Of a stretch of DNA of 64,000 nucleotides, positions 42,704 to 52,751 are shown piece after piece. Source of the DNA: Bifidobacterium asteroides. Its GTDB lineage: Bacteria; Actinomycetota; Actinomycetes; Actinomycetales; Bifidobacteriaceae. Position numbers and translations under genes: made by a program. The notes below the pieces were generated by a model. It saw only the letters and a list, made by a program, of their open reading frames with translations, was not told the DNA's origin and searched no databases. Position 1 is the first letter of the stretch. Each line of letters starts with the position of its first letter. The stretch spans positions 1 to 64,000 of the forward strand of contig NZ_WKKW01000004.1 in NCBI RefSeq assembly GCF_009683175.1. Reading direction: 5' to 3'.

Positions 42704-44749
42704 TCAGTCCTGACTGCAGGAGGTGTTCGCTCGGAAGTCGTCCGCCGAGTTGATCTGGGCGCGGACCTTGATGGCCTCGTTGATCCAGGTTCGGGCCTGC
42801 TCCACAGGCACGCCGTTGAGCTGGCTGCCGTCGCGGAAGCGGAAGGAGACCGCGTTCTTGGAGATATCCTCCTCGCCGGCGATCAGGATGAAGGGGGCCT
42901 TGGACTTGGCCGCGTTGCGGATCTTCTTGCCGAAGCGGTCGTCGGAGCGGTCGATCTCGCAGCGGACCATGTCGTCGCGCAGCTGGTCCAGCAGGTGCTC
43001 CAGGTGGGGGGCGAACTCGTCGGCCACGGGCACGGCCTGCACCTGGACCGGGGCCAGCCAGGCCGGGAAGGCGCCGGCGTAGTGCTCCAGCAGGATGGCG
43101 AAGAAGCGCTCGATGGAGCCGAAGAGGGCCCGGTGGATCATGACCGGCCGCTGGTGGGAGCCGTCGGCGGCGATGTACTCCAGCTGGAAGCGCTCGGGCA
43201 GGTTGAAGTCCAGCTGAATGGTGGAGACCTGCCAGGTGCGTCCGATGGCGTCCCGGGCCTGCACGGAGATCTTGGGCCCGTAGAAGGCGGCGCCCTCGGG
43301 GTCGTCGACCAGCTCCAGCCCGGAGTCCTTGGCCACTTCGGCCAGGGTGTTGGTGGCCTCCTCCCAGACCTCGTCGGAGCCGACGAACTTGTTGGGATCC
43401 TTGGTGGACAGCTCCAGATAGAAGTCGTTGAGGCCGAAGTCCTTCAACACCTTGAGCACGAACTGGAGCAGGTTGGTCAGCTCCCCCTTCATCTGGTCCC
43501 TGGTGCAGTAGATGTGGGAGTCGTCCTGGGTCAGGCCGCGCACGCGGGTCAGGCCGTGGACCTCGCCGGACTTCTCGTAGCGGTAGACGGTGCCGAACTC
43601 GAACAGCCGCAGGGGCAGCTCCTTGTAGGAGCGCTGGCGGGACTTGAAGATCAGGTTGTGCATGGGGCAGTTCATGGGCTTCAGGTAGTAGTCGAAGCCC
43701 TGGCGGGTCACCTTGCCGTTGGCGTCCTTCTCCTCGTCCAGATGCATGGGCGGGTACATGCCGTCCTTGTACCACTGCAGGTGGCCCGAGATCTCGTAGA
43801 GGTGGCCCTTGGTGATGTGCGGGGTCTGCACGAAGGAGTAGCCGTTGCGCCGGTGCATTTCACGGGAGTAGTCCTCCATGGCGTTGATGACGGCCGCGCC
43901 CTTGGGGTGGAAGACGGGCAGGCCGGGCCCGATCTCGTCCGGGAAGGAGAAGAGGTCCATCTCGGCGCCCAGCTTGCGGTGGTCGCGGCGGGCGGCCTCC
44001 TCCAGACGGGCGGTGTAGGCCTTCATGTCGTCCTTGTTGGCCCAGGCGGTGCCGTAGATGCGCTGGAGCATGGGGTTCTTCTCGTCCCCGCGCCAGTAGG
44101 CGGCGGCCGTGCGCATGAGCTTGAAGCTGCGGATGTAGCGGGTGTTGGGCAGGTGGGGGCCCCGGCAGAGGTCCTTCCAGACCGTGTTGCCCTCGCGGTC
44201 CAGATTGTCGTACATGGTCAGCTCGCCGCCGGTGGCCACCTCGGTGGCCTCCTCGCTGTTGATCTCGGCCTCCTTGGCCCCGATCAGCTCCAGCTTGTAA
44301 GGCTGGTCGGCCTCCTCCTTGCGGGCCTCCTCCTCGGTGACCACGCGCCGGCGGAAGCTCTGGGAGGACTTGATGATCCGCTTCATCCGCTGTTCGATCT
44401 GCTTGAGGTCGTCGGGGGTGAAGGTCTTGTCCACGTCGAAGTCGTAGTAGAAGCCGTCTTTGATGACCGGGCCGATGCCCAGCTTGGCGTCCGGACGGAT
44501 CTCCTGGACTGCCTGGGCCATGACGTGGGTGGCCGAGTGTCGCATGATGGCCAGCCCTTGGTCGCTCTCCAGGGTGATGGGCTCGACCTTGTCGCCCTCG
44601 TGCAGGGGTGTGTAGAGGTCGCGTGGCTGCCCGTTGAGGTCGACGGCGATGATGTCCTTGTCGTCAGCAAAAAGCTGGACGCCAGTCTGATCCGCCGCCA
44701 CCTCCTTCCGTTCGCCCTTGACGATGATGGAGATGCTCGACTGTGTCAT
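42704..44749 (-). CDS. thrS: Threonyl-tRNA synthetase
   Basis: A 681-residue class II synthetase. The N-terminal TGS domain (about 1-65) is followed by the editing domain with [12 protein letters not shown]. The catalytic domain has motif 1 GAAVINAME, the zinc ligand Cys in [11 protein letters not shown], motif 2 [13 protein letters not shown], and motif 3 at [14 protein letters not shown]. The C-terminal anticodon-binding domain ends near residue 680. The frame continues upstream to 45175, but the ATG at 44749 has AAGGACGG before it and begins at the TGS fold. Confidence 0.97.
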
Positions 44750-48194: not shown

Positions 48195-51100
48195 TTACTC
48201 GTGCGAAGCGTGCAATAGTTGGTGTGTTTCCTGCCGGTGGCGTCGTGAGGCGAGGACCCCGCCCATGCCGGTCATGCCCGTGGCCAGGGCGAGCAGGATG
48301 CCTTCCCCTCCGGCCTTGGGGAGCACGCCTGCAGGCAGGTACGTGTATCGGAGAGAAGTGTCGGGCGTTTGGGGTGCGCCGCCCAGCGTGTAGTCCACGC
48401 TGACCGTGACCGTGCCCGGCGCGTGCGCGGGCGTGAACACGGTGACACTATTGCCGTCGCCGCGCGTCAATCCTGATACGGCGGTCTGGTCGAACCTGAC
48501 GCCGGTGATCACCAGAGCCAGGTTGAACGACACCGGCACAGGAGCCGACTTGCTGTTTCTGCTGCCGTTGCCGAGCTGGCCGTACTGGTTGTCTCCCCAG
48601 GCGTAGGTGTTCCCGTCGCTGCCCACGGCCAGCGAATGCAATTGTCCGCCGCTGACCTGTGTGGCTTTGAGCCCTAGGCTCTTGTCGGTGGGGCTGGCGG
48701 GGTCGCGCACGCGCACAGGAGCCGACGAAGAGTTGTTGCTGTTGTTGCCGAGGTTGCCATACCAGTTGTATCCCCATGCCCAGGCGTTGCCGTCGCTGCC
48801 CACGGCCAGCGAAAGATGGGATCCGGCGCTGACCTGTGCGGCTTGCAGTCCTTTGCTCTTGTCGGTGGGGCTGGCGGGGTCGCGCACGCGCACAGGAACA
48901 GGATTCGTGTCACTGTATCCGCTGGCGGTGTTGTTGCCGAGGTTGCCATACCAGTTGCATCCCCATGCCCAGGCGTATCCGTCGCTGCCCACGGCCAGGG
49001 AATGATCCCATCCGGCGCTGACCTGCAGGTAGGTGAAATCCTCTGGCAGGTCCGGGTACGCCTTGCGGTCAGGCGTCTTCACCCTGACCGGCGTTTTCTG
49101 GCTGCTGCTCGTCCCGTCGCCGAGCTCGCCATTGCCGTTGTATCCCCATGCCCAGGCGTTGCCGTCGCTGCCCACGGCCAGGGAATGCCAGCCTCCGGCG
49201 CTGACCTGCAGATAGGTGAAGTCCGCTGGCAGGTCCGGGTACGCCTTGCGGTCGGGCGTCTTCACCTTGACCGGCGCATACCGTGTGGTGCTCGTCCCGT
49301 CGCCGAGCCGGCCATAGGTGTTGTTTCCCCAGGCGTAGGCGTTGCCGTCGCTGCCCAGGGCCAGGGAATGATATTGTGCGGCGCTGACCTGCAGGTAGGT
49401 GAAGTCCGCTGGCGCGCCTGCAGGCTTCCCCACTTTGACCGGCGTTTTCTGGCTGCTGCTCGTCCCGTTGCCGAGCTGGCCATTGCTGTTGTCTCCCCAG
49501 GCGTAGGCGTTCCCGTCGCTGCCCAGGGCCAGGGAATGAGAGTCTCCGGCGCTGACCTGCAGGTAGGTGAAATCCGCTGGCGCGCCTGCAGGCTTCCCCA
49601 CCATGACCGGCGTATGCTGGTCGGTGCCCGTCCCGTCCATCCCGTTGCCGAGCTGGCCATAGTAGTTGGATCCCCAGGCGTAGGCGTTCCCGTCGCTGCC
49701 CACCGCCAAGGAAAAATAACCGTTTGTTGATCCGCTGATCTGGCTGAATCTGATGCCCCGGCTGGCGCTGTCGGGCGGGGTGATGGTGGCGGGTTCCCTG
49801 CCCAGCTGGCTGCCCTTGTCGGGGCTGATGCTCCACCTGCTGTTCCGGCTTGCCGGCGTCCAGTGGGCGGCCAGGGTCAGGTCCTTGTCGACGGGCCTGC
49901 TGAAATCATAGGCGACCTCGCCAATGAACCAGCCGTCGAACAGGAAGCCATCGCGCGACGGATCAGGGGAGGGGCGCTTCACCCTCCCGTACGGGGCGGG
50001 GACAGTCTGGTCTGCTGGTATGGGGCTTCCGCCGCCCGTGTCGAAGCGGACCGTGAACGCGGATCCTGGTTCCGCAGCTCGTGCCGGCGGCTGGTCGACC
50101 GTGTACGCAAGGCTCCTGGCGAAAGGCTGCCCGTCCTGCCTGCCCGTGATGAGGATGGCGGCCTGTCCGGGCTTGCGGGCGGGAGCTTCAGCCTGCCAGG
50201 AGCTGCCGGTCTTGCTGAGGTTGAGCGGCTGGCCGTCCAGGCTGGCTGATGCCAAGGTGGGCGCCTGCGTGGTGTCGAGCCTGACGGGTTTGCCGGGCTG
50301 GCCCTGCCCGTCCAAGCTCCATGTGAGCATGCCGCCCTGCCTGCTGACGGCGGTGATCCTGCCGCCGGCAGCGGCGGCCCGCATGTACTGCTGGCTCCCG
50401 TCGTCCGCACGCTTGGGGGCTTCGCCTGGCTTCCAGGCCCAGACAAGACCATTGGAATCAACCAACGCTGCTTGTGTAGCGTTACTGCTTATTGCTGCGA
50501 CGGCAGAATGGTCGGGCATAATCAGCAATTCTGGCTGGGTTTGTCTGTTATCCAGATAACTGGTCTGGCCGGCTGAGTCCAGAAGCACAAAACCATGATC
50601 CGTGGCTGATATCTGAACAATTCGGTGAGCAATCTTGACGTCTTGGATCTGAGCGGTATCAACGGCATCCGGCTTCCAAGCCCAGATTTTGCCTTTGCTG
50701 TCCATGGCGAGCAGGCGATCAGCATTGCCAGCCACCTTGATTGTTGAGGCCTGGTTGGGCAGGCTTATGGCCTTTTCTGTCGGCTTCCCCATGCTGGTCC
50801 ATGTGCGTATACGGCCATCCTGATTCACTGCTATGAGCTGGTCAGAAGCCATGGCAATGCTGGTGTACGTCGTGGAATCTGCGTCAAGCAGGGCAGGCGT
50901 ATCCCCGCCTTTGCTCCAGGTGTAGATGCGGTGATCCCTGCTCAAGGCCGCAAAGCCGTCATGGCCAACTATTCCAGTCATGAATCGCACGTCACTGCGT
51001 TCGCCCTGAGGTGACGGCACCTGAACAGGCATTTCAGCCTTTGATGTCCACGTGAACAGGCGGCCATCGCCGGTCACGCCGATCAGCTTGTCGTCATGGG

Positions 51101-51750
51101 CTTCCAGGGTGCTGAACGAGGGTGAGTCCGCACTCGGGGGTGTGATGGTGATGCTGGTGCCGCCGGAAGCCGGACCATGGTCGGGGCTGAGCGCCCAGTC
51201 AGTCACCGGGGTCCACTTGGCCTTCAAAGTGATGTCCCTGGTGATCGGGGTGCGGAAATCCATCATCGCGTCATGCTCGGACCAGCCGTCGAAACGGTAG
51301 CCGTCGCGCTTCGGATTATCAGCAGACGGCGACGCCAAGGAGCCATCCGGCACAGTTACATGTTCCGCTTTGCTTCCATCGGCAGGGTCGAACACCACAG
51401 CATGAGCATCAGAAGCAGACTGGAGCCCAGCAGGTGAATAAGAGCTGGATGGCGAAATTCCAAGGGATTGGGAAGAACCTGTCGGGGTTTGAACAGGGGA
51501 AGAAGAAACAGATGACGCCTTCAGCGGCGACGGGGAAGGCAGGCTTGTTGGTTGTAGATGGCTCAGGGAACCGTTATCTGCCTGAGCGGTATAGCGACCC
51601 CCCCCCCCTGTTGACATCTGAGCCGGAGGCGAAGACGGTGCCGGTGGCCATGCCGGTCAGCAGCAGGGGGATCAGCACCAATGCTGACATGAGCGACCGC
51701 AGGCCAAACCTATGCGTACGAGAATCGGCAGACGTCGACGACGAAACCAC
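48195..51750 (-). CDS. Phase-variable RCC1/InlB-repeat cell-wall surface protein
   Basis: The body frame (48195-51617, 1140 residues) carries two InlB-type (Listeria-Bacteroides) repeats, at about residues 72-136 and 545-610. Between them lies a degenerate beta-propeller-like region. Seven clear RCC1 blades (each with LAxGSDGNAxAWG and GQLGNG-like motifs) span about 630-1000. The C-terminus has LPKAGGEG, a hydrophobic span and RRHRQ, a variant sortase signal. The body frame has no signal peptide. That is encoded just upstream in another frame, from a GTG at 51750 with GGGGAGG before it (LMSALVLIPLLLTG, then TVFA). The frames are separated only by 11 G residues (51598-51608). Losing one G, or gaining two, would give a secreted protein of about 1184 residues. 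As read, the gene is OFF. Confidence 0.82.
48530..49730 (-). repeat. Seven tandem RCC1 blades
   Basis: Seven imperfect repeats of roughly 150-200 bases, each encoding a blade with a strongly conserved GSDGNAYAWG-type core. Neighbouring blades share long near-identical DNA (for example the GCGTTGCCGTCGCTGCCCA blocks), which would favour recombination between blades. Confidence 0.85.
51598..51608 (-). repeat. Poly-G tract (11), candidate phase-variation switch
   Basis: Eleven C on the plus strand are G on the coding strand, between the signal peptide and the surface-protein body. Translation on the two sides shows frames offset by one base; 10 or 13 G would fuse them. Confidence 0.8.
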
Positions 51751-51875
51751 AACAAACCTCCCCAAAGGATTCAAAACGCTTGGCTGACCCAGTCCCCCGC
51801 AACCATGGGCAGCGCATGAGCAAATCGTATCACGCAGCCATGTGAGCGTCGAATCCCTCGGCAATTCACCCAGGC

Positions 51876-52751
51876 TCAGCTGGCCGCCACGCCCCCTACT
51901 GCGGGCAGGGCGCCGACCATGAGCATGATGGCCACGAAGATGGCCAGGCCGATCCGGTAGATGACGAATCCCCGGTAGGAGAAGCGCGAGACGATCTTCA
52001 AAAAGGCGATGATGACGATGTATCCCAGCAGGAAGCTGACCACGGTGGCGCAGATGGTGGCCCCCCAGCCGGGGAAGGCGGCGTCCGCGTTGATGTTCTT
52101 CAGGGACTTGACCGTCTCGAGGATGCCGGCGCCGAAAACGGCGGGAATGGCCATGAGGAAGCTGACCCGGGTGGCGGACTCGCGGGTGTAGCCCAGGGCG
52201 CGGCCGAAGGTCATGGTGCCGCCCGAGCGGGAGACGCCGGGGATCAGGGCCAGCATCTGCCCGATGCCGAAGAGCAGGGCGTCCCGGGCGCTCATCTGGC
52301 GGATCTCCTTGTTCTGGCGGCCGTGGCGGTCGAAGTAGTCCAGCAGCAGGCCGAAGACGATCAGCACCACCACGGTGATCCAGAGGTTGCGCAGCTTGGT
52401 CTCGATGATCTTCTGGAAGAGCAGGCCCGCCACCACGATGGGCAGGGTGCCCAGAATGATGTACCAGCCCAGGGCCGCATCATGGTCCTTGGAGCCCATC
52501 CGCTCACGCCATGAGGAGCCGTCCTTGCCAGCCAGGCAGCGGAACCAGTGGGTCAGTATGCGGGCAATGTCATGCCGGAAGTAGAGCAGGACCGCCAGCT
52601 CGGTGCCGAATTGGATTATGGCCGTGAAGGCCGCGCCCGGGTCCTGGCCCAGCAGGCCGCCCACAATGCGGATATGGGCGCTGGATGAGACGGGGAAATA
52701 CTCCGTCAGGGCCTGCACCAGGCCGAACAGAATGGCTTCGTAGAAATTCAT
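51876..52751 (-). CDS. uppP: Undecaprenyl-diphosphatase UppP/BacA
   Basis: A 291-residue membrane enzyme with about eight spans that recycles undecaprenyl pyrophosphate, the lipid carrier of cell-wall synthesis, and confers bacitracin tolerance. Signature motifs are LFGLVQALTEYFPVSSSAH near the start and LIPGVSRSGGTM in the middle, including the catalytic Glu and Arg/Ser. It runs divergently from the fructosamine-kinase gene. Confidence 0.96.
   Translation of the reverse strand: MNFYEAILFGLVQALTEYFPVSSSAHIRIVGGLLGQDPGAAFTAIIQFGTELAVLLYFRHDIARILTHWFRCLAGKDGSSWRERMGSKDHDAALGWYIILGTLPIVVAGLLFQKIIETKLRNLWITVVVLIVFGLLLDYFDRHGRQNKEIRQMSARDALLFGIGQMLALIPGVSRSGGTMTFGRALGYTRESATRVSFLMAIPAVFGAGILETVKSLKNINADAAFPGWGATICATVVSFLLGYIVIIAFLKIVSRFSYRGFVIYRIGLAIFVAIMLMVGALPAVGGVAAS

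Follow-up and report, generated by a model that had tools for sequence, protein, structure and literature searches.

The window, the 64-kb stretch of DNA analyzed here, carries a gene that very probably (about 87%) belongs to a multi-gene, phase-variable family of cell-wall-anchored RCC1-propeller proteins switched by poly-G slippage. This reading is built on sequence comparison. The tract recurs at the same position in paralogues, and near-identical alleles differ in its length and in register. Paralogues without the tract are in frame, the stops in the wrong frames are conserved, and the bodies that lie out of register are under purifying selection. The first-pass annotation of this DNA had proposed a phase-variable gene at the locus, and these comparisons support the proposal.

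On the minus strand of the window, a G11 tract parts the frame of the signal peptide from the frame of a body with RCC1 and List_Bact repeats, as read directly from the sequence (Table 1). The signal peptide is hydrophobic and ends in TVFA. It was called by eye and with simple hydropathy, and as assembled it lies in another frame than the body. The signal frame hits a TAA 21 nt past the tract, while the body frame begins one base after the tract and is open for 1133 codons. The frame split at G11 had been described before; the tract, both frames, the GTG start and the stops are confirmed to the base, the earlier frame arithmetic (TAA 21 bases beyond the tract, body in the other frame) agrees with the computed frames, and the body is long and intact as claimed. 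The ORF listing gives 48195–51617 as a single ORF of 1140 aa, with a nominal ATG just before the tract. An internal body start at this ATG (51617) was considered and rejected; by eye, no Shine-Dalgarno-like site lies ahead of it. The gene next upstream is one which we take to be uppP-like. Elsewhere in the window, the protein at 42704–45175 matches genes annotated thrS; among the named records listed for it, from which near-identical ones may be missing, the highest identity is 82%, with Bifidobacterium [indicum], B. tsurumiense and B. aemilianum. Taken with the RCC1/List_Bact/LPxTG-like type of protein described for bee bifidobacteria (Ellegaard et al. 2015; Bottacini et al. 2012), this points to a bee-gut bifidobacterium as the likely source of the window.

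Table 1. Features of the tract-split gene and its upstream neighbour in the window
Feature	Position	Strand	Remark
Neighbour gene upstream, synteny anchor	51876..52751	(-)	
Shine-Dalgarno-like GGGGAGG, upstream of GTG	51757..51763	(-)	in 5/5 rows of the orthologue alignment
Upstream frame, GTG start and putative signal peptide (VVSSSTSADSRTHRFGLRSLMSALVLIPLLLTGMATGTVFASGSDVN)	51609..51750	(-)	
G11 tract	51598..51608	(-)	A at 51609 directly before the tract
Post-tract motif TCGNNNNACCNCTCNNGTAGNT(A/G)A	51571..51597	(-)	conserved, stops in two wrong frames
Body frame	48195..51596	(-)	1133 codons and stop

The window body scores above the cut-off with two Pfam families, RCC1 (PF00415, 253.2 bits, 7 scored stretches) and the Listeria-Bacteroides repeat (PF09479, 68 bits, 2 repeats). 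Its best sequence matches in the PDB are RCC1 propellers, e.g. UVR8 and HERC2. It starts with a Ser/Pro/Thr-rich region, and its C-terminal end has an LPKAG sortase-like signal, a hydrophobic stretch and a basic tail. Among tract-bearing genes, LPxxG is present in 78 of the 82 complete bodies that reach 300 codons, and in 70 of those 78 it reads LPxAG. With both repeats, the leader and LPKAG, the window gene fits the bifidobacterial RCC1/List_Bact surface protein family by its predicted features, and the RCC1/List_Bact/LPxxG architecture suggests a role as an adhesin.

The arrangement of signal peptide, poly-G tract, motif and body is found in 86 copies in 11 of the 27 genomes of the genus examined (17, 15, 13, 8, 7, 7, 7, 5, 3, 3 and 1 copies per genome). 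In the window's own genome (G000), 7 of the 14 G runs of 10–15 lie at this same place in RCC1 genes, after the signal peptide and directly before the conserved motif. Copies were taken as exact matches to the motif pattern following at least 8 G, and 86 is a lower bound; a search for the motif with 3 mismatches and no tract gave a few extra relatives, in which the motif varies or the tract is interrupted or missing. Two more copies in G011 with variant motifs, G13 and G12, are both out of register and stand outside the 86. Among 189 genomes of the family, no motif with tract was found outside the genus (11/189 positive, all from the same genus). The tract-bearing relatives of the window gene probably belong to bee-gut bifidobacteria.

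Tract lengths among the 86 copies are 11 G (n = 17), 12 G (n = 54), 13 G (n = 7), 14 G (n = 4), 15 G (n = 3) and 17 G (n = 1), where the assembled length of any one tract is possibly off by one and each species is represented by one genome. The offset of the body frame is identical in 86/86. For each copy a script picked the upstream start that looked most like that of a signal peptide, and on this basis 21 copies are in register and 64 out; one, whose stretch is cut off by the end of its contig, is unassigned. Bodies of <300 codons occur in two of the in-register copies, one of which has a doubtful start. The in-register share (21/85) falls a little short of one third (binomial P 0.055, for paralogues that are mutually non-independent). 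It is 0/7 in the window's own genome, 0/17 in G020 and 0/5 in G022, versus 7/13 in G018, 4/8 in G007 and 3/7 in G019. This unevenness between genomes (permutation p 0.02) may have a technical or a selective origin. Sequencing technology, culture history and common selection are candidate causes of such differences.

The motif directly after the tract contains stops for both wrong frames, with TAG closing one (+17) and TAA or TGA closing the other (+21). In 83 of the 86 copies neither wrong frame stays open beyond 21 nt, which holds for 1.9% of 2520 random body positions, where the median distance is 183 nt. Three copies depart from this, among them the window copy, which has CAG in place of TAG; that wrong frame ends at a TGA at +32. 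The in-frame Val codon that forms the TAG is GTA in 84/86 copies, and GTA accounts for 9.5% of Val codons in the bodies. Codon 7 of the motif ends in T in 85/86 and codon 8 begins with AA or GA in 86/86. The amino acids at these two codons vary (Ala/Asp/Val and Lys/Glu/Asn/Asp), while the TAA or TGA stays. Our reading is that translation in the wrong frames probably occurs and is cut short at the conserved stops. The motif can also form a hairpin at the tract end using the last Gs of the tract, with all 6 pairs possible in 74 copies and 4–5 of them in the remaining 12. The idea that the motif serves chiefly as a conserved RNA hairpin was weighed and rejected, as the window's own group reaches only 4/6 pairs. 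Covariation is not visible in the hairpin because its tract side consists of fixed Gs. Of all features of the motif, the off-frame stops alone are claimed here as apparently selected.

The window gene adjoins the uppP-like gene in all five genomes that carry its motif variant (the window's and four others). In the four others, the 1.2 kb upstream matches this neighbour in tblastn with 99.6–100% identity over 162–232 of its residues. In the alignment of the window gene with its four orthologues, the DNA is nearly unchanged from the ribosome site through the signal peptide, and the orthologue bodies share 65–81% protein identity with that of the window. The four orthologue tracts read 11 G, 12 G, 12 G, or G-A followed by 11 G. 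G011 and G020 have G at the position of the window's pre-tract A, and the window's A + 11 G is aligned with 12 G. The orthologue is in register in G019 and out of register in G003, G011, G020 and the window.

Ten orthologue-like pairs between genomes have at least 93% identity in body and upstream region (two bodies of ≤300 codons were left out). Tract length differs in six of these pairs and state in four. In the closest pair (G008 C1:528521 and G022 C5:748000), the bodies are 99.2% identical and the 250 nt upstream are 99.6% identical; the tracts differ by one G, with G11 ON and G12 OFF. As in a contingency locus, a homopolymer in the 5′ coding region sets the reading frame of the window gene, and alleles differ in tract length with a change of register, here between genomes of different species. 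Five pairs with both members OFF have dN/dS of 0.13–0.41 by simple Nei-Gojobori counts, the pairs being non-independent (three of the five fall within one genome trio). At least 900 codons are found in 59 of the 62 complete OFF bodies. Overall, 6 of 84 complete bodies are shorter than 900 codons, and some in-register copies have short bodies. The out-of-register bodies seem to be kept as working proteins.

In the window's own genome, every tract-less RCC1 gene whose N terminus could be read (seven of seven) has an in-frame leader that resembles a signal peptide, as judged by eye. The underlying search scored 150 of 195 candidates, and two further pieces that end at contig ends were not judged. 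One of the seven keeps most of the motif, without the TAG. Three relatives in G022 and G004 have the G run broken or gone and the leader in frame in every case. The leader is in frame in 4/4 motif-bearing relatives without an intact tract (L171:2-2362, L174, L175 and L176), with the TAG gone from two of them and retained in two; further along, the body of L175 contains a stop. These tract-less relatives resemble derivatives locked ON, of which one has decayed.

G/C runs in the window number 1630 at length 3, 312 at length 4, 103 at length 5 and 11 at length 6. There is none of 7–10, and the single run longer than 6 is the 11-G tract. Besides its 14 runs of 10–15, the window's own genome has one G run of exactly 8 and none of 9, a bimodal spectrum. 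A chance origin of the own-genome tracts was among the candidates rejected; since a rough base-composition estimate is compatible with about as many runs of ≥10, the bimodal spectrum and a strand control were used instead. A signal-like start with a long body is found for 8/14 tracts read as G versus 1/14 read as C in G000, and for 37/74 versus 1/74 in G002; in G021 the control comprises only two usable cases. G runs of ≥10 are present in 26 of the 27 genomes of the genus examined and the tract with conserved motif in 11 of 27, and poly-G tracts are tabulated for five Bifidobacterium species in the available part of Penno et al. 2022 (PMC9187656). The earlier statement that such tracts are rare in bifidobacteria is not upheld by these counts. 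The number of runs of ≥10 is 98, 69 and 65 in G026, G002 and G017, and zero in G009 of the same genus. Six more G runs of 10–14 in G000 (C1:123940, C1:725436, C1:816167, C3:16178, C3:16542 and C6:51352) have no signal peptide with a long body in the G-strand reading, and some may be intergenic.

In the proposed mechanism, replication would add Gs to, or remove them from, the poly-G tract that separates the signal peptide from the body. In two of the three registers, a conserved off-frame stop shortly beyond the tract would end translation, giving no surface protein (OFF). In the third register the whole protein would be secreted and presumably anchored by sortase (ON). The window copy would be OFF as assembled. 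As each paralogue has its own tract, many combinations would be possible in one clone. We infer replication slippage as the cause, switching within the population and display at the surface; the proteins may serve in binding or help to evade immunity or phages. Profile searches of the own genome gave no MutS_V match and one NucS match.

Three other explanations must be weighed. The split in the window could be an assembly error, the true tract being in register and the gene simply expressed. Homopolymer lengths are indeed error-prone, Penno et al. report discrepancies between database and measured lengths and warn that assembled tract lengths can be wrong (PMC9187656, available text), and the ON share is uneven between genomes. 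We regard such an error as very unlikely, because the tract, the motif and the split frames recur in 86 copies, the out-of-register length of 12 is the mode and occurs also in the single-contig genomes G007 and G018, and conserved wrong-frame stops make sense only if those frames are read. It is harder still to see the family as pseudogenes in decay that frameshifts have fixed in place. In every case the frame is broken at the same tract, this tract and the motif are kept across species, and both the dN/dS values of the OFF/OFF pairs and the lengths of the complete OFF bodies speak for maintained genes, so that decay is scarcely credible even with 64/85 assigned copies out of register, the 6/84 short complete bodies and the stop in the body of L175.

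The strong mode at 12 G (54/86), with lengths not spread over the registers, is a point against switching. A single, mostly out-of-register length is what could be expected from programmed slippage of RNA polymerase or the ribosome at a fixed tract, which would give a constant small share of full-length protein with no switching in the DNA, and the hairpin possible right after the tract in most copies would suit such a process. However, almost identical alleles are one G apart and in different registers, the window's group has a weaker hairpin, and the precedent in B. breve is replication slippage (PMC9187656, available text). Programmed slippage is thus very unlikely in our judgment, and we prefer switching of the gene by changes of tract length in the DNA.

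A second placement of the tract, inside the signal peptide, is found in three further genomes (G002, G021 and G001). G002 has 37 such genes, counted as a signal-like start, tract and body of ≥250 codons among 74 runs of ≥9 in the fetched stretches; two tracts too near a stretch end were left out of the survey. They comprise 29 with G11 out of register, 7 with G10 in register and 1 with G11 in register. By a crude pattern 25/37 bodies are RCC1-like. Of the other 12, the one body searched, L191 (G002 C1, about 413.3 kb), is a leucine-rich-repeat/List_Bact protein behind a tract-bearing signal peptide, suggesting that switched leaders are not confined to RCC1 proteins. In G021, 17 tract-in-signal-peptide genes are seen among 22 runs in 20 chosen stretches, 12 of them in register, and in G001 5/6 runs in five chosen stretches are such genes, two in register. 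In chosen stretches of G014, G025 and G010 the counts are 3/4, 2/8 and 4/14 runs, with other placements. Outside G002 the stretches were picked by proximity to RCC1 matches or for T-preceded runs, and the counts are not a fair sample. The two placements may have arisen independently.

It is fairly likely that these genes form an Opa-like repertoire of up to ~37 independently switched genes per genome. In this picture the tract would have been introduced on two or more occasions, behind the signal peptide together with the dual-stop motif that can form a hairpin, and within the signal peptide; switched leaders of one kind would precede ectodomains as unrelated as RCC1 propellers and leucine-rich repeats; and derivatives that lost the tract would be locked ON. 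The Opa proteins of Neisseria would be the closest working analogue of the RCC1 switch. As far as the available texts go (PMC3960869, PMC13183285), they too are encoded by many diverse surface loci, each with its own frame-setting repeat in the signal-peptide coding region; the repeat is a CTCTT pentamer rather than mononucleotide G, and the products are outer-membrane proteins from 9–12 loci per gonococcal genome. The window gene is not an Opa, having a G tract and an RCC1 body with LPKAG. It would work like one, and no sequence relation is claimed.

Slipped-strand switching, its precedent in pili of the genus and the RCC1 family of bee bifidobacteria are already known. For the sortase-dependent pili bbr_0113 and bbr_1889 of B. 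breve, a G-tract ON/OFF switch was shown by experiment; the available text describes replication slippage at the two pilus loci, which are OFF in their assembled form, and enrichment of the ON length in mice (PMC9187656). Poly-G stretches are reported at pilus clusters of B. dentium too (PMC12104195, available text). As in the B. breve pili, from the same bacterial family, the signal peptide and the sortase-anchored body of the window gene are two ORFs split by a G tract and OFF as assembled, and slippage would put them in register. The pili differ in being pilin operons with their own sortase, generally with one or two tract-bearing clusters per genome and 8–13 G in the study's table (PMC9187656, available text). 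Here the tracts have 11–17 G, the genes encode RCC1 propellers, up to 17 genes per genome have the motif, or 37 have the tract in the signal peptide, and the RCC1 genes carry a conserved post-tract motif with two off-frame stops.

RCC1 proteins of bee bifidobacteria have been described with 19 copies in B. asteroides PRL2011 (Bottacini et al. 2012, PMC3447821) and 7–24 genes per genome (Ellegaard et al. 2015, PMC4449606). In the available parts of both papers, this family shares with ours RCC1, the Listeria-Bacteroides repeat, a C-terminal sortase signal and tandem clusters. The main text of Ellegaard et al. 2015 does not contain ‘phase’, ‘homopolymer’, ‘frameshift’ or ‘slipped’, and in the available text of Bottacini et al. 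2012 ‘phase’ refers to growth phases only and ‘frameshift’ is absent. We found no description of switching of bee-bifidobacterial RCC1 genes in a literature search that stopped short of most subscription papers and preprints and took in larger lists only in part. Within that reach, the multi-gene switched family, the dual-stop motif and the second tract placement were not found described and are apparently new.

If the switching reading is true, the known and unexplained RCC1 expansion would be a combinatorial switching system in a simple, tractable gut symbiont. The reasons for phase variation in commensals, such as sorting into niches or pressure from the immune system or phages, would become testable in gnotobiotic bees. 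RCC1 genes of such genomes that seem to have no leader would probably be switched, not broken. The family members look built to flip independently, comparable to coat variation in some human pathogens.

A G tract is also seen behind a leader of another kind. In the window's own genome, L005 (G000:C2:314047-314060) has G14 directly after the lipobox-like ...LAACG of a solute-binding-protein-like lipoprotein. Its body of 510 codons matches SBP_bac_1 with 33.1 bits and is out of register with the leader as assembled. L249 and L251 of G010 have leaders like that of L005, with G14.
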